Shown: positions 14,283 through 16,946 of the stretch, piece after piece | Layout of the letters: each line of letters opens with the position of its first letter | Position numbering within the stretch: position 1 is the first letter of the stretch | NCBI RefSeq assembly: GCF_014268585.2 | Contig: NZ_CP077092.1 | Location: 6,009,515 to 6,073,514, forward strand | DNA from: Pseudomonas iranensis | GTDB taxonomy: Bacteria; Pseudomonadota; Gammaproteobacteria; Pseudomonadales; Pseudomonadaceae | Reading direction: 5' to 3' | Length of the DNA stretch: 64,000 nucleotides | Made by a program: the position numbers and the translations under genes | Notes under the pieces: model-generated | What the model was told of the DNA's origin: nothing | Seen by the model: the letters and a program-made list of their open reading frames with translations, nothing else | Database searches by the model: none

Positions 14283-14951
14283 ATGAGCAAAAAAGTTGCA
14301 GTGATCCTGTCCGGCAGTGGCGTGTACGACGGCGCCGAAATCCAGGAAAGTGTCATCACCCTGCTGCGCCTCGACCAGCGCGGCGCACAGGTGCAGTGCT
14401 TCGCGCCGAACATCGCGCAATTGCATGTGATCAACCACCTGACCGGCGAAGAAATGCCGGAATCGCGCAACGTGCTGGTGGAATCGGCGCGCATTGCCCG
14501 GGGCAACGTCAAGGATATCCGCGACGCCGACGTCGAAGACTTCGATGCGCTGATCGTGCCCGGCGGTTTCGGCGCGGCGAAGAACCTGTCGAACTTCGCC
14601 ATCGAAGGCGCCGGCTGCACCGTGCAACCCGAAGTGCTGGCCCTGGCCGAAGCATTTGCCGAAGCGGGCAAGCCGGTCGGGCTGATCTGCATCTCCCCGG
14701 CGCTGGCAGCAAAAATCTATGGCCCGGGCGTGACCTGCACCATCGGCAACGACGCCGACACCGCTGCGGCCATGAACAAGATGGGCGCCACCCACGAAGA
14801 GTGCGCTGTGACCGAGATCGTCGAAGACAAGGCGCGCAAACTGGTCACCACCCCGGCGTACATGCTGGCGCAGACCATCAGTGAAGCGGCTTCGGGGATC
14901 AACAAACTGGTCGACCGCGTGCTCGAACTGACTCACGAAAACGACGCTTGA
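14283..14951 (+). CDS. elbB: Isoprenoid biosynthesis glyoxalase ElbB
   Basis: A 222-residue DJ-1/PfpI-superfamily protein matching ElbB (also called YhbL or SCRP-27A) over its full length. It has the start SKKVAVILSGSGVYDGAEIQ, the catalytic nucleophile-elbow region VGLICISPALA (Cys near 138) and TPAYMLAQTISEAASGI near the end. ElbB homologues have weak glyoxalase activity and have been linked to isoprenoid yield. The ATG at 14283 has a GGAGAAG Shine-Dalgarno; a longer frame upstream has no family support. It lies 168 nt downstream of the DedA gene. Confidence 0.9.
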   Translation: MSKKVAVILSGSGVYDGAEIQESVITLLRLDQRGAQVQCFAPNIAQLHVINHLTGEEMPESRNVLVESARIARGNVKDIRDADVEDFDALIVPGGFGAAKNLSNFAIEGAGCTVQPEVLALAEAFAEAGKPVGLICISPALAAKIYGPGVTCTIGNDADTAAAMNKMGATHEECAVTEIVEDKARKLVTTPAYMLAQTISEAASGINKLVDRVLELTHENDA

Positions 14952-14956
14952 AATCA

Positions 14957-14983
14957 AAAGATCGCAGCCTTCGGCAGCTCCTA
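14957..14983 (-). repeat. Class B REP, left half, interrupted by the IS
   Basis: The sequence AAAGATCGCAGCCTTCGGCAGCTCCTA is a REP of the GTAGGAGCTGCCG type in inverted orientation (positions 14957-14983). Its natural continuation CAGG reappears on the far side of the insertion sequence at 16419. It pairs with the inverted copy at 16462-16491. Confidence 0.85.
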
Positions 14984-14986
14984 TGT

Positions 14987-14998
14987 ATGGACTCGCCC
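14987..14998. repeat. Sub-terminal inverted repeat, transposase-distal (right) end of the IS
   Basis: ATGGACTCGCCC is the exact inverted complement of 16400-16411. It sits 3 nt inside the inferred element boundary. Confidence 0.85.
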
Positions 14999-14999
14999 C

Positions 15000-15200
15000 A
15001 CCATTCAACCCGCTTTTGAACACTGCTACCCGGTTGCATCTATGTATAAGGCCTGTTCGAGGAAGCGTTGAGCGGCTTCTGGCCAACATTGGGTTAGCTC
15101 GCGGTATGCCGATTACAGTAAGGCCTCAAGGGCCAGTAGGAGCTCAGGCATCAATCCGCGACGGTCTGACCTGGGGTCAATGTTCTTCAGCATGGGTTGG
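15000..15200 (-). ncRNA. Candidate bridge/seeker RNA of the IS1111-type element
   Basis: This is the non-coding stretch downstream of the transposase, where IS1111-group elements carry their guide RNA. Read on the minus strand it contains, in order: AGCTCCTAC (15136-15144), a hairpin GGCC-CTTGA-GGCC, CTGTA (15114-15118), then CCAAT (15088-15092), a hairpin with arms GAAGC and GCTTC inside GGCC arms, and ATACATA (15041-15047). The first pair matches the two sides of the REP target (CTCC-TA-C and CTG-TA). The second pair matches the two element ends (complement of ATTGG, and ATACA-TA). This fits a target-binding loop followed by a donor-binding loop. The exact ends of the RNA are not defined by sequence. 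Confidence 0.6.
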
Positions 15201-15233
15201 AGCGGTTTACGCCCCGGTGGCAGAACTTTGTTG

Positions 15234-16334
15234 TCAGTGACTCATCGCAGCCTCCTGGCCATCGCCCGGCCGGCGCCGATAAGTCTGGTCGTTTTGCAGC
15301 AGCACCCAGAGGATGCGCAGATTTCGATTGGCTAATCGCACTGCTGCCTGCTTGCGGCCCAGGCGGGAAATCCAGCGCCAAAGACGCCTGTCGTCCGGCT
15401 GCTCTGAATCCGGACGTATCTGTCTTAAAACGGCATGAGCGCCCTGAATCGTTAAACTTCGCAGATAAGCGTCACCGTTCTTGCTCATTCCGCCCAATCG
15501 GTTTTTCTCGCCAGAGCTGTGCTGGCTGGGCACCAATCCGAAGTAGGCGGCGAACAAACGGGCGTTGGCGAAGCGTTCGGGTTCGGTCTGCTTGGCCAGC
15601 AGCGCCGTGGCAATGATCGGACCAACACCGCGCACCGTCATCAGCCGCTTCGCCGTTTCATCCTCATTCGCTGCCGTTTCCAGCCGACCGGTCAGCACGT
15701 TGACGCGCTCACCCAGTTGGCCCCACTCACCCAAAAGTTCGGCGATCAGTTCACGCAGCAAATCAGGTAGCGGCTGAGTGGCATCTTCCAGAACTCGAGG
15801 CACGAGCTGCCTGATCGCTATCTCACCCTGAGCCATGGCTACCCCATGTTCCAACAGCAAGGCGCGTATCTGATTACCCACCGCAGTGCGGCGCCGCACA
15901 TAGCCCTGACGAGCCCTGTGCAGGGCCTGCATCGCCAGCGCCGCAGCACTCTTGATCGGTACTGCCGAAATTTTGCAGTCGCGGCCTGCACGCAAGATCG
16001 CCAATACATCGTTGCGATCATTTTTTGGGCCGCTACGATGACTGGCAACCAGCTGGGCCGGCAGGATGCGGACGGAATTACCCTGCATCTGGAGCAATCG
16101 CGCCCATGCTTGAGCGCCGGGCCCGGTTTCAACTAACACCGTAACGCTCGCGGGAAGCCCACGCAGAAATACCTGAAAGGCTTCTCGCGACTTGATTCGA
16201 TCTTCGAAAATCACCTGACCGAGGGCATCCTCCCCAGCCACCTGAAAAACCCTCTTGGCAAGATCTATCGCAACTGTGGAGCATGCCGACACGTCGGCTG
16301 ACAAGGATTGATCAATCGTCGTATGCTTTTTCAT
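15234..16334 (-). CDS. IS110/IS1111-family transposase (DEDD recombinase)
   Basis: A 366-residue transposase. The N-terminal RuvC-like DEDD domain shows D in IDLAKRVFQV (near 26), E in VETGPGAQAW, and the two Asp of KNDRNDVLAIL. After a coiled middle region, the C-terminal Tnp_20 domain starts with the helix-hairpin-helix-like MTVRGVGPIIATALLA and contains the conserved serine block LVPSQHSSGEK followed by GGMSKNGDAYLRS. These enzymes cut and rejoin DNA using an RNA guide and leave little or no target duplication. The start at 16334 follows a GAGG; a longer frame reaching 16415 would run into the inverted repeat and was rejected. Confidence 0.94.
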   Translation of the reverse strand: MKKHTTIDQSLSADVSACSTVAIDLAKRVFQVAGEDALGQVIFEDRIKSREAFQVFLRGLPASVTVLVETGPGAQAWARLLQMQGNSVRILPAQLVASHRSGPKNDRNDVLAILRAGRDCKISAVPIKSAAALAMQALHRARQGYVRRRTAVGNQIRALLLEHGVAMAQGEIAIRQLVPRVLEDATQPLPDLLRELIAELLGEWGQLGERVNVLTGRLETAANEDETAKRLMTVRGVGPIIATALLAKQTEPERFANARLFAAYFGLVPSQHSSGEKNRLGGMSKNGDAYLRSLTIQGAHAVLRQIRPDSEQPDDRRLWRWISRLGRKQAAVRLANRNLRILWVLLQNDQTYRRRPGDGQEAAMSH

Positions 16335-16399
16335 GGCCTCGCCCTCGCTGTCGTTGGCTTCTATAAGAATGCCACCGTGGCGCACAGACGCCTCGGCTT

Positions 16400-16411
16400 G
16401 GGCGAGTCCAT
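16400..16411. repeat. Sub-terminal inverted repeat, transposase-proximal (left) end of the IS
   Basis: GGGCGAGTCCAT is the exact inverted complement of 14987-14998. It lies 5 nt inside the inferred boundary at 16416. Confidence 0.85.
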
Positions 16412-16461
16412 CCAATTACAGGTTCCGTGTCGCGCCGTGATATTGCGGCATACACCGCCCC

Positions 16462-16491
16462 GGTAGGAGCTGCCGCAGGCTGTGATCTTTT
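16462..16491 (+). repeat. Class B REP, right copy
   Basis: GTAGGAGCTGCCGCAGGCTG and its continuation to GATCTTTT form a REP facing the one at 14957-14983. Without the IS the two would form an ordinary inverted REP pair about 43 nt apart. It touches the stop codon of the YaiI-family gene. Confidence 0.85.
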
Positions 16492-16946
16492 CAGGGCTTG
16501 CGGGTGAGCCGGGTCAGGATCCGATCCAGCGCATTGGCAAACGCCTGCTTTTCACGCTCGCCAAACGGCGCCGGCCCGCCGCTCATCTGGCCCTGCTCTC
16601 TGAGATCGGTGAACAGATTACGCACCGCCAGGCGTTCGCCCATGTTCTGCGCATCGAACTCCTTGCCGCGCGGATCCAGCGCCGCCACGCCCTTCTTCAC
16701 CAGCCGATCGGCCAGCGGAATATCGCTGCAGATCACCAGTTCGCCCGGCACCGCATGCTCGACCAGATAATCATCTGCCGCATCCGGCCCGCTCGGCACC
16801 ACAATCAATTTGACGATCGCCAGCCCCGGCTTGACCTGCGGCTGCCCGGCCACCAGCACCACTTCGAACTGGCGCTTTAACGCGAACTTCACCACCAGAT
16901 CCTTCGCCGCCCGTGGACAGGCGTCGGCATCGATCCATACACGCAT
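16491..16946 (-). CDS. YaiI/YqxD family protein (DUF188, UPF0178)
   Basis: A 151-residue member of UPF0178, recognised by the start MRVWIDADACPRAAKDLV, the VPSGPDAADDYLVE block and ICSDIPLADRLV. The Asp-rich pattern resembles PIN/NYN-like nucleases, but no activity is established for the family. It is a single gene between REP elements, with no obvious operon partner. Confidence 0.9.
   Translation of the reverse strand: MRVWIDADACPRAAKDLVVKFALKRQFEVVLVAGQPQVKPGLAIVKLIVVPSGPDAADDYLVEHAVPGELVICSDIPLADRLVKKGVAALDPRGKEFDAQNMGERLAVRNLFTDLREQGQMSGGPAPFGEREKQAFANALDRILTRLTRKP

Follow-up and report, generated by a model that had tools for sequence, protein, structure and literature searches.

What does the non-coding segment behind the transposase gene of an IS1111-type element in Pseudomonas iranensis encode, and what brings this element to the REP repeats in which it lies? 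It was only in 2024 that RNA-guided insertion by the IS110 family was reported, and the mechanism attracts interest for genome engineering. The element is located in a window of 64,000 nucleotides (the whole stretch of DNA analysed; contig NZ_CP077092.1, positions 6,009,515 to 6,073,514), and all coordinates given below are positions of this window. In a preliminary description, the segment was read as two successive guide units, the first matching both sides of the REP target and the second both ends of the element.

An IS1111-type element within REP repeats

The element and its immediate surroundings comprise the following features.

14984..16416, minus strand: IS1111-type element, ATTGG...ATACA, 1433 bp (1435 bp counting one core TA), with ends common to six copies
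16417..16418, minus strand: core TA of the left junction, read in the sequence and in an orthologous empty site holding one TA
14982..14983, minus strand: core TA of the right junction, read in the same two ways
16400..16411, minus strand: left subterminal inverted repeat ATGGACTCGCCC, 12 bp and perfect, reported for copies L002, L004 and L005
14987..14998, minus strand: right subterminal inverted repeat GGGCGAGTCCAT, pairing with the left 12-bp repeat
15234..16334, minus strand: transposase, 366 aa from the ATG at 16334, or 393 aa for the frame opening at TTG 16415
16463..16471, plus strand: GTAGGAGCT in the inverted REP arm adjoining the insertion, the target being part of a REP pair

The element starts with ATTGG at 16416 and finishes with ATACA at 14984, each end adjoined by TA. 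We consider ATG 16334 the likely start of the transposase. The 393-aa frame matches PF01548, the N-terminal DEDD domain (46.4 bits), and PF02371, the C-terminal domain (81.7 bits), each above the curated cut-off, and the transposase scores 262.1 bits against NF033542, the NCBIfam model of IS110 family RNA-guided transposases; a weak match, 34.1 bits under a cut-off of 100, was also found to the NCBIfam model of the TIGR-Tas RNA-guided endonuclease. In a structure search by sequence, the ISCro4 and IS621 transposases were the only solved relatives, the alignment to IS621 spanning 68 residues only. Non-coding DNA amounts to 250 nt downstream of the transposase gene and 82 nt upstream of the ATG, and the terminal extensions outside the repeats are TAATTGG (7 bp, left) and ACA (3 bp, right), counting one TA to the element. 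Subterminal inverted repeats in the IS1111 group are usually 11-13 bp long (PMC11187229). As read from the sequence, the domains, the 12-bp subterminal repeats, the 7- and 3-bp extensions, the downstream RNA region and the guide order described below are all those of the IS1111 group. An Rfam scan gave no match at gathering score inside the element, a result without bearing on IS1111 membership; elsewhere in the window it recovered Pseudomon-Rho (RF01720, 3584-3684, minus strand) and the rnk leader (RF01772, 43474-43579, minus strand), two families that point to Pseudomonas. The promoter and terminator scan of 14900-16500 returned two sites each, none of them directly upstream of the RNA region.

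Six copies of the element with identical ends and differing flanks are present in the genome (G000), five of 1433 bp and one of 1432 bp, and they account for all six PF02371 matches found there. The shorter copy (L006/L182, G000:C1:1533798-1535233) lacks 1 bp and its transposase frame is shortened to 265 aa. Among plasmids, the best 5000 records by score all fell below 60% identity, the highest value among the 30 matches listed being 42.1%.

All six copies are inserted between GTA and TAGGAGCTG of REP repeats, and in all six the REP tail CTGCGATC is reached at most 45 nt into the right flank. The orthologous spacer of another genome (L094) holds an unbroken TGTAGGAGCTGCCGAAGGC with a single TA, from which it follows that insertion leaves TA on both sides. 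The GTAGGAGCT REP is kept at this spot in one of the 13 orthologous loci examined; the other 12 contain different spacer sequence.

Four guide segments and the part of chance

The four segments claimed for the transposase strand in the preliminary description were all found on the minus strand, and in the same order.

15136..15144, minus strand: right target guide AGCTCCTAC, which reads GTAGGAGCT; 73/78 junctions match 8/8 over TAGGAGCT or a variant
15135-15121, minus strand: hairpin TGGCC-cttga-GGCCT of unit 1, between the target guides
15114..15118, minus strand: left target guide CTGTA; GTA alone is constant in the targets
15088..15092, minus strand: right donor guide CCAAT, which reads ATTGG; 5/5 in 9/14 genomes, 4/5 in 2 and 3/5 in 3
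15084-15050, minus strand: longer GGCC...GGCC stem of unit 2, between the donor guides
15041..15047, minus strand: left donor guide ATACATA, identical to the element end ATACA plus TA

The top-strand complement AGCTCCTAC lies 5' of the bottom-strand match CTGTA, as in the IS1111 seekRNA rule. Chance occurrence of these matches was assessed with 40000 dinucleotide shuffles of 234 nt, the patterns having been fixed after the sequence was seen. The exact 9-mer alone arose in 31 shuffles, and 14 had ATACATA no more than 60 nt after CCAAT; the 9-mer followed by CTGTA within 30 nt, and both units together, arose in none (0/40000 each). In a looser test, a match of at least 9 nt to the 27-nt target on either strand appeared in 100/3000 shuffles. 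The nine-base match, regarded earlier as unlikely by chance, is therefore weaker evidence than was claimed, and a lone match of this length was rejected as decisive. The case rests on the two-unit order and above all on covariation.

Conservation of the predicted fold

Folding of the region yields the following predicted features.

14994..15204, minus strand: non-coding region, predicted bridge RNA / seekRNA precursor, with a conserved consensus fold
15100..15160, minus strand: predicted target-binding stem-loop, with helices CGCGG/CCGCG and ATGCC/GGCAT around an internal loop
15036..15098, minus strand: predicted donor-binding loop, with inner stems GGCC/GGCC and GAAGC/GCTTC

In the consensus fold, built from 13 different relatives, all four guide segments are unpaired: AGCTCCTAC and CTGTA occupy the two sides of an internal loop that encloses the GGCC/GGCC hairpin, and CCAAT and ATACATA flank the longer hairpin in the second loop. 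In the fold of the lone sequence, 25 of the 26 guide bases are unpaired, the only paired one being the first A of AGCTCCTAC. The segments thus sit in loops and not in stems, as the guide reading expects. Both helices of the target stem-loop are paired in 13/13 sequences, and in the outer one three pairs have changed on both sides. Over the whole consensus, 97.0% of cells are paired and 17 cells carry changes on both sides, compared with a shuffled mean of 6.7 (0/500 shuffles as high). Two of the five covariation measures do not exceed shuffles: pairs changed in both partners, of which there are 6, were at least as numerous in 143/500, and further pair types, of which there are 19, in 490/500. 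Sliding the partners abolishes pairing; however, this control favours the consensus because the structure was derived from those very sequences, and the both-side changes in helices 3 and 6 are better evidence for the fold. The fold energy of the whole region is ordinary (z -0.78; 48/200 shuffles fold equally well), and it was rejected as evidence for a guide RNA.

Guide and target change together

Relatives 73-92% identical to the element were collected from other genomes, among 398 genomes of a larger genus with at most 4 candidates scored per listed genome; they were delimited by their ends alone, and guide and flank were read. Copy numbers are consequently lower bounds, except in G000, G263, G274, G181, G128, G103 and G046. 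Excluded were duplicates (L044, L045, L048), loci in which no guide block could be recognised (L021, L022, L024-L028, L034, L038, L041-L043, L055-L057) and distant relatives of about 34-42% identity (L058-L073), several of which have related subterminal repeats (ATGGACTC...) and other flanks. The loci L109-L138 and L158-L165 cover places that the counts include under other loci, L008, with just 3 nt of left flank, was omitted from the left-side counts, and G128 and Pseudomonas sp. TH41 were taken as a single genome on the grounds of the flanks common to L048 and L014 and of the six copies in each.

The first set comprised 49 insertions from 14 genomes, that of the window among them; here the right target guide matched its flank at all 8 bases in 45 cases, with one mismatch in three and at 4/8 in one. 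After the addition of more copies from G263, G274 and G181, 63 of 68 insertions were perfect, four matched at 7/8 and one at 4/8. Ten right ends from partial loci, unused in finding the rule, matched 8/8 without exception, four of them coming from GR12-2 and one from ERMR1:02, both genomes already counted. Two new guide classes appeared among these partial loci, TAGGTTGG (one Rhodanobacter and one betaproteobacterial MAG) and TAGGAGGG (P. syringae GR12-2); the TAGGTTGG loci, L023 and L030, adjoin palindromic-looking TAGGTTGGGG repeats. The total is 78 right junctions in 20 genomes and seven guide classes, with 73 junctions at 8/8 and four at 7/8, and when guides were permuted among genomes the observed match was reached in 0/50000. 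The same loop goes with the same target in all six own copies, and across the 20 genomes guide and target change together. Of the two results that the preliminary description named as refuting the guide reading, guide segments placed in stems and equal loops with unrelated targets, neither was obtained.

The five imperfect junctions are L053, L074, L079 and L154, each one base off, and the aberrant L049. In L053, an element of 1375 bp, the guide is TAGCAGCT and the site TAGGAGCT. At the right end of L049, 73 bp of the element end are duplicated, starting at an internal TAGGCC within the donor-guide unit, and the outer flank is TAGGAGCC, as the guide predicts; this would fit an insertion of the element into itself with subsequent loss of one copy.

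Could the agreement merely follow host ancestry or the abundance of repeats in the host? The guide class has switched at least 6 times on the transposase tree of the 14 genomes. To weigh abundance, five site classes were counted in ten host genomes, and in half of them (5/10) the guide class is indeed the commonest site class, as this explanation would have it; in the other 5/10 it is not. In TH41 (G128), TAGCAGCT makes up 154 of 1949 counted sites (a share of 0.079), yet it takes 6/6 insertions. Similarly, the guide class received 12/13 insertions in G274 (host share 0.275), 6/6 in G181 (0.193) and 11/12, at TAAGAGCG, in G263 (0.013). Six hosts gave little power or failed: G000 (P 0.24), G138 (0.65), G254 (0.24), G012 (0.068), G103 (0.19) and G046 (0/1). 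Of the 59 insertions in the ten genomes, 56 belong to a counted class, and 54 of these 56 fall in the guide class, compared with 18.6 predicted from abundance; without G263, 43/45 do so, more than in any of 200000 simulated runs (maximum 30). We therefore regard ancestry or abundance as an extremely improbable source of the agreement.

A related element in another repeat family

The second alternative is that the transposase recognises REP palindromes, by their structure or by protein-DNA contacts, and that the matching RNA segment is incidental. It finds support in the targets, which are mostly REP-type repeats, and in the use of related REPs by related transposases. However, the elements of TH41, P. 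lini and G274 are close neighbours on the tree, the TH41 guide differs by one base, and the TH41 sites differ from those of P. lini and G274 by the same base.

Further data bearing on this alternative come from G263, in which the guide reads TAAGAGCG, two bases from that of the window. All 12 copies found there are inserted in a dispersed repeat of a different kind, ...GTGACTCGCTGTA|TAAGAGCGAAACC... in slightly varying form and not a GTAGGAGC-type REP, and this despite 915 counted sites of four REP-type classes in the genome. Eleven copies are at TAAGAGCG and one at TAAAAGCG, whereas the uninterrupted repeat copies divide into 10 with TAAGAGCG and 11 with TAAAAGCG; occupation by this one-base difference is 11/21 vs 1/12 (Fisher P 0.022). 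Inside two groups of G263 copies the left flanks are alike at 42-50 of 50 bases, so that spread of some copies together with the repeat is conceivable; outer right flanks differ among the seven copies compared. The placement of the G263 copies in a non-REP repeat argues that the guide, and not the REP palindrome, sets the site, and recognition of the palindrome by the protein appears very unlikely.

The conserved stretch of the repeat hit in G263 is about 160 bp long with the core GTGACTCGCTGTAAGAGCGAAACC (L047, L077-L079, L139-L146). Uninterrupted copies of the same core also occur in the window's genome, four exact and one with one mismatch (L166, L169, L172 and L175 among them). Rfam gave no match at gathering score for this repeat; it may belong to the intergenic repeat families described for P. 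fluorescens, e.g., R178 or R200 (PMC2718517).

The left target guide and the donor guides

On the left side, GTA is constant in 68/68 insertions. The base before it matches the left target guide in 53/67 junctions, and in 0/6 in TH41; CTGTA specifies little beyond GTA.

In the window, the second unit matches both element ends as described. ATACATA is invariant across relatives; the CCAAT-type guide agrees fully with the element start in just nine of the 14 genomes. Permuting donor guides among genomes reached the observed value in 230/50000. One clean double change was found, in G103, where the element start ATCGG occurs with the donor guide CCGAT; in the three genomes with ATTAC-ended elements the donor guide mismatches at 2/5. 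The donor-side guide is less well supported than the target guide.

How insertion would proceed

Very probably, the bridge RNA (seekRNA) of an IS1111-group element is encoded in this segment and directs the element to REPs. The anatomy, the insertion sites, the one orthologous empty site, the conservation of the fold and the covariation of target and guide, all observed here, may be joined in one mechanism, in which the transcript, its binding by the transposase, the circular intermediate and the exchange of strands at TA are modelled on studied relatives. The transposase would bind RNA from 15204-14994. One internal loop would pair with the target, its first strand AGCUCCUAC with the top strand of GTAGGAGCT and its second strand CUGUA with the bottom strand as far as the TA core. 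The second loop would do likewise with the element ends as joined in the excised circle, ATACA-TA-ATTGG. Recombination of the two TA cores by the transposase would then place the element between GTA and TAGGAGCT of the REP, with TA on each side. The wild-type guide should lead to insertion into CTGTAGGAGCTG.

Another role has been proposed for the RNA of a related element. In ISPpu9 of P. putida, an sRNA from downstream of the transposase gene, Ssr9, is reported to sponge another sRNA (PMC8450116), and by this example the present RNA might mainly regulate transposase expression. Regulation alone leaves unexplained a complementarity that tracks the changes of the target, and as the main role it has hardly any likelihood; regulatory and guide roles could exist side by side.

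Comparison with studied elements

The REP-directed guide, which the preliminary description had called inferred, gains support from the 73 perfect junctions of 78 and the permutation result, and it is also less novel than it seemed, as such guides have been demonstrated for other elements (PMC11187229, PMC11208160). RNAs from downstream of the transposase gene co-purify with the transposases of ISPa11, ISEc11 and ISKpn4, and their segments are reported to match both target strands, the top-strand complement coming first; for ISEc11, the RNA was shown to be necessary for circle formation and insertion (PMC11187229). The closest parallel is ISPa11, which targets a P. aeruginosa REP and shares with the present element the IS1111 organisation, the RNA downstream of the transposase gene and the guide order (PMC11187229). 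It differs in its point of insertion, described as lying between bases 6 and 7 of its REP (PMC1525189). The ISPa11 RNA was purified with its transposase, whereas the RNA of the present element is predicted from sequence (PMC11187229). IS621, an element of the sister group IS110 found in an E. coli REP, is similar in its bispecific RNA with target and donor loops, its REP target and its short core (PMC11208160). Unlike the present element, the IS110 group is described as having short subterminal repeats and an RNA that precedes the recombinase, within the left end. For ISEc21, of the IS110 family, the reported guide order is reversed (PMC11187229). ISPpu10 and ISPa11 are among six elements given predicted loops (PMC11208160).

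ISPpu9 and ISPpu10 of P. putida KT2440 are, like the present element, IS110-family elements residing in Pseudomonas REPs (PMC1525189, PMC8450116). ISPpu9 also has an RNA region downstream of its transposase gene, there an sRNA (PMC8450116); compared by description, it differs in its AG direct repeat, in a second sRNA upstream of the transposase gene and in the reading of its sRNAs as regulators (PMC1525189, PMC8450116). Relatives of known elements in which guide and site have changed together were reported as ISXne4 and ISMch6 (PMC11187229). Those are single pairs with few copies, whereas seven guide classes, 78 junctions and one-base switches are available here. Titles and abstracts among the matches listed from the open-licence literature name no guide series that tracks REPs. 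REP-directed guides are already known experimentally from ISPa11 and IS621, and the present element is of value for its clean natural retargeting series.

The element family provides natural, replicated evidence on which guide bases matter: on the right these are eight, TA included, and on the left hardly more than GTA. In related bacteria, changes of one or two guide bases evidently re-address the element between chromosomal repeat classes, and even to another repeat family. The tolerance of the guide and its natural retargeting become directly testable.

A mismatch next to the right guide

At position 9 (window 15145), the base next to the 8-nt right guide, complementarity to the target is absent from 77 of the 78 junctions in the 20 genomes, the sole match being the aberrant end of L049. 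The chance of this is about 0.003 (0.75 to the power 20) if the 20 genomes are taken as independent, a value that weakens with fewer independent lineages and belongs to a pattern noticed after the fact. The guide-encoding DNA matches the guide over its full length, whereas in targets the match ends before position 9; pairing at this position could therefore bar self-insertion. That the mismatch is kept as a self/non-self mark, forbidding insertion into the element's own guide, is nevertheless doubtful, and we mention it as a tentative idea. The guide base at position 9 itself changes at least 5 times on the tree of 14 genomes. It is also worth mentioning that the plus strand at 15136-15144, which encodes the guide, is the GTAGGAGCT sequence itself, a potential self-target.
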